This document shows, one piece after another, positions 10,922 through 33,921 of a stretch of 36,717 nucleotides of DNA (positions are counted from its first letter, which is position 1; every line of letters starts with the position of its first letter). Both the position numbers and the translations under genes were made by a program. Source of the DNA: an uncultured Armatimonadota bacterium (GTDB taxonomy: Bacteria > Armatimonadota > Fimbriimonadia > Fimbriimonadales > GBS-DC); contig CAKZQI010000278.1 in the NCBI GenBank assembly GCA_937139515.1, positions 1 through 36,717 on the forward strand. The letters run 5' to 3'. The notes under the pieces were generated by a model, which saw only the letters and a list, made by a program, of their open reading frames with translations, made no database searches and was not told the origin of the DNA.

Positions 10922-12661
10922 ATGCGAATTTGGCGACGAAAACGGCGCATCTGGGACACCAGCGACCCTGCCCAACTGTTGAGGGAACTGCAAGTGCGCG
11001 AGCGCGCTCTCCAAGAGGCGCAACAGACCATCCAGCAGCTGGAACATCGCCTTGCCGACCGCGAAGCGGAAATTGAAGCCCTCCGCAAAATCAGCGAAGC
11101 GACTGGAAGTGCCTTCGCCTCCGAACAAATCCTGCCCTCCATCGCCGAGATTGCTATGCGCATCACCGACACCGAAGTCTGCTATATCTTCCTGTTCGAT
11201 GAGACACGCGAGCAGTTGGTGCTCCGCGCCGCGACGGGCGAAGACCAGCGGTTCGTGAACGAAATCCGATTGGCGCCCGGCGAGGGCATCGTGGGCTGGG
11301 TGGCTCGTGAGCGCAAGCCTGTTGCGATTGCCCGCCAAGCCTACAAAGACCCCCGCTTCAAGAACTATCCCGCCCTACGCGAGGAGCAGTACGAGAGTAT
11401 GCTGGCAGTGCCGTTGGTGGTCGCAGGCGAGGTGATTGGGGTGATTAGCGTGCGCACGCGTCAGCCGAAAGAGTACCAACAGGAGGAGATTCGCCTGCTG
11501 TCAGGCATCGCTAGCCACCTCGCCGGCGCGCTCAATCAGCTTAGCCGTATCCAACAGCTGGAGCGTACAGCAACCCAAGTGGTGACGCTGTCCGAAATCA
11601 GCCGAACGCTCACAGGCAACCTTTACTTGGAAGAGGTACTCCAACTGCTGGTGCATATGACCGCCCAGACGCTGGGCTACAAGATTGTGACGGTGATGCT
11701 GATTGACGAAGAGCGGGGCGAGCTGGTGCTGAAGGCGACCCAAGCCGAGAGCGATGAGTATCGCCAAAAGCCCCCCTTGCGCCTTGGGGAGAGCATCGCA
11801 GGGCGTGCAGCAGCCGAAGGGCGTATCATTGTGGTGAACGATGTGCAGAAAAGTCCCGACTATCGGTTCCCCGACATAGCCGAGCGGGAAGGGCTTCACT
11901 CGATGGTCTGTGTGCCGATGCGCGTGCGCGAGCAGGTCATCGGCGTACTCAACTGCTACACCGACCGTCCCCACTTGTTCACCGACGAGGAACTGCGCAC
12001 CTTAGAAGCGGTCGCCAGCCAAGCGGCGCTGGCGATTGACCACGCCAAACTGATGGTGCGCAGTGCCATCCTGCAAGAGATGCACCATCGCATCAAGAAC
12101 AACCTGCAACAGATTGCCAGCCTGATGCGCCTGCAGAAGCACTACTCGCGCTACAAAACGGTGGACGAGGTCATCCACGACAGCTTGAGCCGAATTTTGG
12201 CGATTGCGCAGGTGCACGAACTGCTCTCACGCGAAGATTTGGATATGGTGAGCCTGCGCAAGATAGCCTCCAGCATCCTGCACAACACCAAGCAGGCGTT
12301 GATGGCGCCGGGCAAGCAGATTATCTCGTCGGTGGAGGGCGACGATGTGCTCCTTCCGCTCCAGCAGGCGACGGCGGTTGCGCTGATTCTAAACGAGTTC
12401 ATCCAAAACGCCATCGAGCATGGCTTCAAAGAGCGCCCCGAAGGGCAGATTGCGGTACGCGTGCTCAAAGAGGGCGACCAGGTCACGCTCACCGTCGCCA
12501 ACGACGGCGAGCCACTCCCACCTGACTTTGATGCGGTGCGAAGCAACACGCTGGGAATCAAGATTATAGACAACCTCGTGCGAGGCACCCTGCGCGGGCG
12601 GTTTGATATGTACTCCCGCGACGATCAGACGGTGGCGCAGGTGATGTTCCCAGCGGTATAA
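10922..12661 (+). CDS. Sensor histidine kinase: two GAF domains, HisKA_2-type dimerisation domain, HATPase
   Basis: Two GAF modules (ending VPLVVAGEVIGVISVRTR and VPMRVREQVIGVLNCYTD); MHHRIKNNLQQIASLMRLQ; LNEFIQNAIEHGF; VANDGEPLPPDF. Confidence 0.88.
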   Translation: MRIWRRKRRIWDTSDPAQLLRELQVRERALQEAQQTIQQLEHRLADREAEIEALRKISEATGSAFASEQILPSIAEIAMRITDTEVCYIFLFDETREQLVLRAATGEDQRFVNEIRLAPGEGIVGWVARERKPVAIARQAYKDPRFKNYPALREEQYESMLAVPLVVAGEVIGVISVRTRQPKEYQQEEIRLLSGIASHLAGALNQLSRIQQLERTATQVVTLSEISRTLTGNLYLEEVLQLLVHMTAQTLGYKIVTVMLIDEERGELVLKATQAESDEYRQKPPLRLGESIAGRAAAEGRIIVVNDVQKSPDYRFPDIAEREGLHSMVCVPMRVREQVIGVLNCYTDRPHLFTDEELRTLEAVASQAALAIDHAKLMVRSAILQEMHHRIKNNLQQIASLMRLQKHYSRYKTVDEVIHDSLSRILAIAQVHELLSREDLDMVSLRKIASSILHNTKQALMAPGKQIISSVEGDDVLLPLQQATAVALILNEFIQNAIEHGFKERPEGQIAVRVLKEGDQVTLTVANDGEPLPPDFDAVRSNTLGIKIIDNLVRGTLRGRFDMYSRDDQTVAQVMFPAV

Positions 12662-12672
12662 TTTGGGTTACG

Positions 12673-13791
12673 ATGGAACTCCAGGTGTTGCTGGTCGCTG
12701 TCCTGTCTGCGTTCTGGGTGGGCGCGCTTCCGTTCGGATACTGGCTCGCTCGTTTGAGGGGGGTGGACATTCGGAAGGTCGGGAGTGGCAACATTGGCGC
12801 CACGAATGTGTTTCGCATTTTAGGTGCCAAGGTTGGTGTTCCCGTGCTTCTGCTGGATACCCTCAAGGGCTGGCTTCCCACTTTTGTAGTGATGCGCATC
12901 GGGGCGGACGATGTGTCGGCGGTTCTGGTAGGGGTCTCGGCGATTCTAGGGCACACCTTTTCGCCTTTCATCGGCTTCAAGGGGGGCAAGGGCATCGCCA
13001 CAGGCTTGGGAGTGCTGTTGGCACTCTCGCCGATGACGCTCGCGGTGGCGCTTCCTGTGTTTTTGGTGGTGTTCCTCATCACGCGCTGGGTCTCGTTGAG
13101 TTCGGTGTTGGCGGCGCTCACCGTGCCCATCACCGCCTATTTAGTGGGGCACTCGCCAACGGTGGTGGCGATTCTCTCGGCGGTGGTGGCGGTCATCGTG
13201 TGGAAACATCGCTCCAACATCCAACGCATTTTGCGGGGCGAGGAGCCGAAACTGCAACTGCGGGCGCACAAGCCGAACTTGGAGCAGGACTGCCTCAGCT
13301 TAGCCCGGCGTGCGGTGGAGCGGTTCGTGCAAGAGGGGGCGCGCATCGAGCCTGACCTGAAGGCACTTCATCCCCTGCTTCGGGAGTCGGGCAGTGTGTA
13401 TGTGGCTATCTATCAAGACGAGCAACTGCGGGGATTGATGGGGAACCTCACACCCGAACAGCCCACCCGCGCCCACGAGATTATCTATCATGCCACGCGC
13501 GCAGCGCTGTTGGACCCGCGCTGTCCCCCCGTTGAGAGCCACGAACTGCCCACCCTGCGCTATGTGGTCTATCTGGTGGAGTCGTATGAGCCGTTGCGCG
13601 ACCTAAGTCAGGTGAACCCCCACCGCGACGGCGTATTGATCGAGTGGCAGGGTCAGGCGAGTGCGCTGGTGCCGCCCCTGCCGAATGTGGAAAGCCCCCA
13701 ACAGCAGATTGAGTTAGCCTATGCGCGTTGTGGGATTCCGCGCTCCGCTTCGGCACGGGTCTACCGTGTGCGCTTGAACCGTATCGGCTGA
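12673..13791 (+). CDS. plsY: Glycerol-3-phosphate acyltransferase PlsY fused to a C-terminal AMMECR1-like domain
   Basis: PlsY: GSGNIGATNVFRILG, FKGGKGIATGLGVLL, KHRSNIQRILRGEEPK; then SLARRAVERFVQEG...LRESGSVYVAIYQDEQLRGLMGNLTP...AALLDPRCPPVESHELPTLRYVVYLVESYEPL, AMMECR1-like. Confidence 0.82.
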   Translation: MELQVLLVAVLSAFWVGALPFGYWLARLRGVDIRKVGSGNIGATNVFRILGAKVGVPVLLLDTLKGWLPTFVVMRIGADDVSAVLVGVSAILGHTFSPFIGFKGGKGIATGLGVLLALSPMTLAVALPVFLVVFLITRWVSLSSVLAALTVPITAYLVGHSPTVVAILSAVVAVIVWKHRSNIQRILRGEEPKLQLRAHKPNLEQDCLSLARRAVERFVQEGARIEPDLKALHPLLRESGSVYVAIYQDEQLRGLMGNLTPEQPTRAHEIIYHATRAALLDPRCPPVESHELPTLRYVVYLVESYEPLRDLSQVNPHRDGVLIEWQGQASALVPPLPNVESPQQQIELAYARCGIPRSASARVYRVRLNRIG

Positions 13792-13792
13792 G

Positions 13793-14620
13793 ATGTGGGT
13801 CAAAATCTGCGGTCTCACCCGTTTCCAAGACGCTCAGGTCGCGATTGATGCGGGTGCCGATGCGCTCGGCTTCGTGTTCGAGCCGCGCAGTAAGCGCCAT
13901 TTGCCCCCTCACGAAGGTTGGCAGTCGTGGGTTCGCACGCTGGATACTTTACGCGTGCTGGTGTTGGCAGACCCAAGCCAGGTGCCTGCCGATTGGAATT
14001 TGTTTCACGCTATTCAGTTAACTTTGCCCGAAGGTTTCACGCCGGGGGATGCGAAACGGCTGTTGCCTCCGTTGCCGTTGTGGTTGGCGTTGCGGGTTGC
14101 GCCGTTGGAGAACCTCACCTCCCCAGACCCCCTCTCCGCAAGCAGAGAGGGGGGAGCAGACCTCACCCCCCCAGCCCCCCTCTCCGCAAGCAGAGAGGGG
14201 GGAGAGCTAGCCGGTTCCCCCTCTCCGTTTACGGAGAGGGGGTTAGGGGGTGAGGTCAACACCTCCCTTCCGACGGAGAGGGTACAAGGGAACGAAACCA
14301 TCCCCGACCCCCTCCTACCAACCCTTGAACAGTGGGCGCCCTATGTGGAGCGGTTCATCTTAGATAGCTATCATCCCAGCTTGCCCGGCGGTACGGGCGA
14401 ACCCCACGATTGGGAACGGGCGTGCCGAATCTGCCAGCATGCACCTCGCCCGATTGTGCTGGCGGGTGGGCTTACCCCCGAAACGGTAGCGCAGGCGATT
14501 CGCATCGTGCGCCCCGATGGGGTGGATGTGAGTTCGGGAGTGGAACAGGCGCCGGGCATCAAAGACCCAGTGCGCATTCGGCTCTTCATCCAGCAGGCGA
14601 AGGGAGGGCTGAATGGCTAA
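13793..14620 (+). CDS. trpF: Phosphoribosylanthranilate isomerase TrpF with in-frame repeat-derived insertion
   Basis: MWVKICGLTRFQDAQVAIDAGADALGFVFEPRSKR; FILDSYHP; PIVLAGGLTPETVAQAIRIVRPDGVDVSSGVEQAPGIKDP. Confidence 0.88.
   Translation: MWVKICGLTRFQDAQVAIDAGADALGFVFEPRSKRHLPPHEGWQSWVRTLDTLRVLVLADPSQVPADWNLFHAIQLTLPEGFTPGDAKRLLPPLPLWLALRVAPLENLTSPDPLSASREGGADLTPPAPLSASREGGELAGSPSPFTERGLGGEVNTSLPTERVQGNETIPDPLLPTLEQWAPYVERFILDSYHPSLPGGTGEPHDWERACRICQHAPRPIVLAGGLTPETVAQAIRIVRPDGVDVSSGVEQAPGIKDPVRIRLFIQQAKGGLNG
14109..14260. repeat. CT-rich palindromic repeat array inside trpF: two CCCCCTCTCCGCAAGCAGAGAGGGGGG units plus CCCCCTCTCCGTTTACGGAGAGGGGG
   Basis: Hairpin units; related units at 33793-33899; 26-bp identity to 1113-1138. 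Confidence 0.9.
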
Positions 14621-33732: not shown

Positions 33733-33921
33733 GAGAGTGTTTGAAAAATAGCTGAGTGTCCTTGCACCTTGTTCACTCCTCGTCTTTCCAGAGAACCTCA
33801 CCCCCCTTAGTCCCCCCTCTCCGCAAGCAGAGAGGGGGGAGCGCCTGCGTGCCTGCGCCCCCTCTCCGTAAGCGGAGAGGGGGTCGGGGGTGAGGTCAAT
33901 ATAGATTTTTCAAACACCCTC
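33733..33921. mobile_element. 189-bp TIR element (GAGAGTGTTTGAAAAATA ... GATTTTTCAAACACCCTC) containing the CT-rich palindromic repeat
   Basis: TIRs match those at 17204/17391; flanks ACAGGGCGA (33724-33732) vs ACAGGGCAG (33922-33930), 7/9 identical. Confidence 0.75.

Follow-up and report, generated by a model that had tools for sequence, protein, structure and literature searches.

An open reading frame in the window analyzed here (the whole stretch of DNA, 36,717 nucleotides long) joins the membrane acyltransferase PlsY to an AMMECR1 domain, which raises the questions of whether the fusion is genuine, where its AMMECR1 part came from, and what such a domain may do on the essential enzyme with which phospholipid synthesis begins. 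AMMECR1 has conserved members in organisms ranging from bacteria to humans, its human gene carries mutations in a syndrome, and no molecular function is assigned to it (PMC5502304).

Domain composition of the fused gene

The original prediction of a complete PlsY and an AMMECR1 domain in one reading frame was borne out by the Pfam matches to the uninterrupted 372-aa frame (Table 1): PF02660 covers residues 13–186 (E-value 2.3e-52, above the curated cut-off) and PF01871 covers residues 209–359 (E-value 1.5e-24, 86.8 bits against a gathering cut-off of 25). The PlsY model TIGR00023 scores 189.5 bits (cut-off 137.2), and the AmmeMemoSam_A model TIGR04335 scores 77.5 bits with the whole ORF and 80.4 bits with the domain alone, below its cut-off of 99. 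In sequence matches to solved structures, the N-terminal half is related to PlsY from Aquifex (5xj5, 1.5e-42) and the C-terminal half to archaeal AMMECR1 proteins (1zq7, 1vaj). An AlphaFold2 model (mean pLDDT 72.9), for which 15 family sequences were used, superimposes on PlsY 5xj7 with a TM-score of 0.93 on the target, and its C-terminal part matches 1vaj (TM-score 0.61, E-value 3e-8) as well as 1zq7, so that the fold proposed earlier for the C-terminus is indeed AMMECR1-like. Because the model reaches only moderate confidence over its AMMECR1 part, we prefer the sequence statistics as the basis for the identity of that part; with a pTM of 0.47 the model gives no firm information on docking between the two domains.

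Table 1. Coordinates of the fused gene, its parts and its neighbours in the window
Feature	Position	Strand	Remarks
GAF-GAF-HisKA_2/HWE sensor histidine kinase	10922..12661	+	PF13185, PF07568; 11 bp upstream of the fusion
Fused PlsY-AMMECR1 gene	12673..13791	+	372 aa, ATG start, TGA stop, one open frame
PlsY part, seven-TM glycerol-3-phosphate acyltransferase, residues 1–195	12673..13257	+	Matches to PF02660, TIGR00023, 5xj5, 5xj7
PlsY motif GSGN, residues 37–40	12781..12792	+	S38 aligns with aaPlsY Ser35; invariant (n=16 family sequences)
PlsY motif GGKG, residues 104–107	12982..12993	+	K106 aligns with aaPlsY Lys104; invariant
PlsY motif HRSN, residues 179–182	13207..13218	+	H179/N182 align with aaPlsY His177/Asn180; H179, R180, N182 invariant
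Short linker, residues 196–204	13258..13284	+	Low model confidence; pLDDT <50 at residues 196–201
AMMECR1 domain of AmmeMemoSam_A (TIGR04335) descent, residues 205–372	13285..13788	+	PF01871, tree, fold matches 1vaj, 1zq7, 1wsc
LRGLMG, counterpart of the LRGCIG loop, residues 252–257 (Cys replaced by Leu255)	13426..13443	+	
trpF	13793..14620	+	PF00697; 1 base between the fusion stop and the trpF ATG

PlsY is a seven-helix membrane enzyme, in which the residues of importance in the Aquifex protein (aaPlsY) are Ser35, Arg45, His92, Lys104, His177 and Asn180, the last two binding substrate just ahead of the C-terminus (PMC5700162). Their counterparts in our alignment are S38, R48, H94, K106, H179 and N182, all invariant in 16 family sequences. 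The genome that carries the fusion has a single PlsY and a single AMMECR1, both of them in the fused protein, and encodes PlsX separately. Judging from the invariant catalytic residues, the PlsY part is very probably an active acyltransferase; being the only copy, it is probably essential. The fusion thus shares with PlsY proteins (TIGR00023/PF02660; 5XJ5–5XJ9) the full-length fold, the catalytic residues and a PlsX in the genome, but differs from the solved structures and from unfused PlsY of Armatimonadota, which end soon after motif 3, by an extra C-terminal domain of 168 residues.

Distribution and origin of the fusion

The host family consists mostly of uncultured bacteria, often from hot springs, and, judging by contig names, includes HRbin15, DC and KatS3mg018 (Fimbriimonadales, Armatimonadota). 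The fusion was found in 16 of its 18 genomes including its own, i.e. in 15 of the 17 others searched; the two genomes that lack it are 81 and 85% complete and have no match to any PlsY. In 14 relatives, among them the closed Fimbriimonadales genome KatS3mg018 (AP024673.1; G005), it is conserved at 54–72% identity over almost its full length. In the fifteenth (G015) the match fades at residue 272, and the C-terminal half (L017:1492-2559) stays in frame but has decayed beyond recognition by Pfam; the completeness recorded for this genome is 100%. We regard G015 as a late stage in the loss of the AMMECR1 domain, which implies that the domain is dispensable in at least some lineages. The concern, raised with the original prediction, that the fusion might be peculiar to this contig was dispelled by its recovery from 15 further genomes of the family, of which one is closed; together with the low dN/dS (see below) this rules out both an assembly artefact and a chance fusion of frames. 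No plasmid record covered 80% of the fusion. Both domains belong to known families; a literature search for PlsY with AMMECR1 found no paper that describes this architecture or the phylum-wide gene pair presented below, and domain-architecture databases may list the fusion.

The source of the AMMECR1 part was sought with a profile made from the fused C-termini and one unfused relative, which was run over all 292 genomes of the phylum, and further loci were then fetched. The top matches outside the family are AMMECR1 genes with plsY as the upstream neighbour: plsY lies immediately upstream on the same strand of all domains scoring above approximately 111 bits, except L126 and L136 (both from family f5), and of none scoring below. 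In total, AMMECR1 is directly downstream of plsY in 34 of the 36 Armatimonadota genomes that possess an AmmeMemoSam_A-type AMMECR1, and the pair spans nine families (f6, f7, f9, f15, f20, f37, f38, f39 and f45), often with der upstream of plsY. At many junctions the stop codon of plsY and the start codon of AMMECR1 overlap (ATGA, TGATG, TAATG or TAGTG), which is the usual sign of translational coupling. Four unfused pair-type AMMECR1 proteins were scanned with TIGR04335, and all of them score above its cut-off (120–142 bits). Of the two parts of the predicted role in glycerolipid or acyl-phosphate metabolism, the adjacency to plsY in 34 of 36 genomes supports the link to glycerolipids, and the role in acyl-phosphate metabolism as such gained no support.

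The nearest unfused relative of the fused domain comes from family f45 of the same taxonomic order (G291, locus L062), with a plsY stop codon TAG that overlaps the GTG start of the AMMECR1 gene, and an intact LRGCVG motif. In the AMMECR1 tree the fused domains form a single group (support 100/100) with G291 as a neighbour at moderate support (88/75), and both are placed inside the AmmeMemoSam_A clade (89/96). In the PlsY tree, the PlsY of this family groups with other Fimbriimonadales PlsY. The provenance of the fusion from a two-gene plsY-AMMECR1 unit is therefore well supported. The PlsY tree is consistent with, rather than proof of, vertical descent of the pair, its fusion in one family and the disappearance of AMMECR1 from the sister families, because the deep branches of this tree are open. 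Transfer from another phylum is not favoured, given the position of the family among other Fimbriimonadales PlsY, though the same deep branches bear on this point.

Two other groups of AMMECR1 proteins in the phylum deserve mention. The stand-alone AMMECR1 of sister family f2 (L063–L069), in which the N-termini resemble signal peptides and the motif reads GCRG, forms a distant, separate clade (100/99) and on these grounds was rejected as the source of the fused domain; searches for Memo in the genomes concerned gave no match, and this may possibly be an extracytoplasmic AMMECR1. Other Armatimonadota encode Memo-AMMECR1 fusions (ORFs of approximately 520–570 aa), which likewise carry AMMECR1 as the C-terminal domain in one frame, but they differ from PlsY-AMMECR1 in the N-terminal partner, in the retention of the Cys residue and in their placement in a separate clade.

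Divergence and possible role of the fused AMMECR1 domain

The motif LRGCIG has been described as identically conserved in the AMMECR1 family (PMC5502304). Among the 143 distinct AMMECR1 domains in the loci examined, its Cys is present in all 128 unfused ones and in none of the 15 fused ones, where it is replaced by Leu (14 sequences) or Met (one); the altered loop noted at the outset is thus a property of the whole fused group. Relative to 37 unfused operon-type sequences, whose numbering is used here, and at positions where these are conserved to 93% or more, the fused domains have changed not only Cys48 but also R76 (mostly to Tyr), F77, Y112, R122, G123, L126, K145, A146 and F159, and have retained A4, F36, V37, R46, G50, E62, D74, P79, E84, P127, Q138 and R158. 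Since R46, G50, E62, D74, E84, P127 and Q138 are among the latter, a binding site or an altered catalytic site may survive.

The fusion genomes have also lost the usual partners of this AMMECR1 subtype. According to our hand counts (with a threshold of E≤1e-60 for the radical-SAM protein), Memo_B (TIGR04336) is found in none of the 18 family genomes versus 35 of the 36 genomes that have the unfused subtype, and AmmeMemoSam_rS (TIGR04337) in none of 18 versus 30 of 36; PF01875 (Memo) is likewise absent from the family genomes. Thus, the fusion shares with AmmeMemoRadiSam protein A (TIGR04335; PF01871; 1VAJ, 1ZQ7, 1WSC) the fold, the subfamily clade and residues R46, E62, D74, E84 and Q138, but it differs in the Leu or Met at the LRGCIG Cys, in the membrane enzyme as partner and in the TIGR04335 score below cut-off, and its genomes lack both Memo_B and the radical-SAM partner of that system. 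With the Cys, other invariant residues and both partners lost, the fused domain probably no longer does what a stand-alone AMMECR1 does. As our literature search found no biochemical function for any AMMECR1 domain, the loss of the ancestral activity is judged here from residue loss, with a catalytic role of the Cys as an assumption.

The stem of the fused AMMECR1 clade is 1.28 changes per site long, against 0.33 for the main PlsY stem of the family, and the median dN/dS is 0.13 for the PlsY part and 0.15 for the AMMECR1 part (Nei-Gojobori, 63 pairs). Hence the AMMECR1 domain evolved fast at first, after which purifying selection has constrained it as strongly as PlsY.

In the reading that we favour, and to which we give roughly an even chance, the protein is an active PlsY with a cytosolic C-terminal AMMECR1 domain, a captured former AmmeMemoRadiSam subunit that has been catalytically altered and serves in cis as a regulatory or ligand-binding module. 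Early in Armatimonadota an AmmeMemoSam_A-type AMMECR1 gene lay directly downstream of plsY, in many cases with stop and start codons that overlap. In the Fimbriimonadales family the junction became one frame, Memo_B and the AmmeMemoSam radical-SAM enzyme were lost, and the AMMECR1 part shed the Cys of its signature motif along with further conserved residues and changed fast before settling under purifying selection. Tethered approximately 20 residues past the catalytic motif 3, the domain would lie close to the active site on the cytosolic side of the membrane, where it could sense a ligand or provide a docking site and so tune or feed the conversion of acyl-phosphate and glycerol-3-phosphate to lysophosphatidate, replacing the ancestral Cys-dependent function. 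The history of the fusion is well supported; the cytosolic placement, the action in cis and the loss of the ancestral chemistry, and with them the mechanism, are what we infer from it. If true, this would be a regulatory domain acting in cis on PlsY, of which we know of no example.

The other readings differ in what they ask of the domain. It could have kept enzymatic activity of an altered kind, directed at acyl-phosphate, glycerol-3-phosphate or lysophosphatidate, in a bifunctional protein, as the selection equal to that on PlsY, the retained ancestral residues R46, E62, D74, E84 and Q138 and the pairing with plsY throughout the phylum would allow; we consider this unlikely, given that Cys48, R76 (in most sequences), R122, G123, K145 and F159, all of them fully or almost fully conserved among the unfused relatives, are gone together with both system partners. 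A scaffold that brings a cytosolic protein such as PlsX, the supplier of acyl-phosphate, or PlsC to PlsY would agree with the inferred cytosolic side next to the substrate-binding motif and with a separate PlsX in the genome; the ancestral AMMECR1 was associated with Memo and radical-SAM proteins rather than with PlsX, and we hold such a role to be improbable. Much the same low probability attaches to the AMMECR1 part being a passenger, acquired when the stop codon between neighbouring genes was lost and kept only as its misfolding would harm PlsY: the fast change around the fusion, the missing Cys and the decayed C-terminus of G015 speak for it, whereas a dN/dS as low as that of PlsY and the retention of length and many conserved residues at 54–72% identity speak against it, and a new stop codon would have been a cheap way to remove the tail.

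The fusion and the phylum-wide gene pair tie AMMECR1 to membrane-lipid synthesis, i.e. to a testable context with an assayable essential enzyme and a solved structure. The series from a pair with the Cys and the partners, through a fusion without either, to a decayed domain amounts to a natural experiment that bears on which part of AMMECR1 makes the contact with lipid synthesis.

AMMECR1 outside the phylum and neighbours of the fusion

Of roughly 100 genomes sampled outside Armatimonadota, 15 carry an AMMECR1 of the AmmeMemoSam_A type. In none of these 15 strong relatives is plsY adjacent, so the linkage is not supported as a bacteria-wide feature. A polyprenyl diphosphate synthase is encoded directly upstream of AMMECR1 in four of the 15 loci (L200, L201, L210 and L211), and several have a radical-SAM gene downstream. 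Burroughs et al. (2019), in their work on the Memo superfamily, reportedly suggested an isoprenoid context for Memo; as a lead, the pair with plsY would extend this context to glycerolipids. Tentatively, and with a smaller chance of being right than our favoured reading of the fusion itself, the AmmeMemoRadiSam system as a whole might act on or regulate membrane lipid synthesis, at the formation of lysophosphatidate or at polyprenyl lipids. The plsY pair and the polyprenyl diphosphate synthase neighbours would then be direct traces of this role, and the fusion an endpoint that keeps only the contact controlling PlsY. One 1.4-Mb genome outside the phylum has a compact cluster (L207:1798-4084) of a gene with a LigB-type dioxygenase fold, AMMECR1 and AmmeMemoSam_rS, in which the first gene occupies the position expected for Memo_B.

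In those other family loci that were read, the sensor histidine kinase found upstream of the fusion in the window has no homolog in the vicinity of the fused gene, and its adjacency is therefore probably not functional. The order of the fusion and trpF is repeated in most of these loci, and the two genes are likely co-transcribed. The trpF gene of the window contains an in-frame insertion of approximately 50 aa (14112–14310) made of copies of a palindromic repeat (CCCCCTCTCCGCAAGCAGAGAGGGGG and variants). The 224-aa trpF product of KatS3mg018 is free of this insertion, and a similar palindrome occurs elsewhere in the window, at position 33863.
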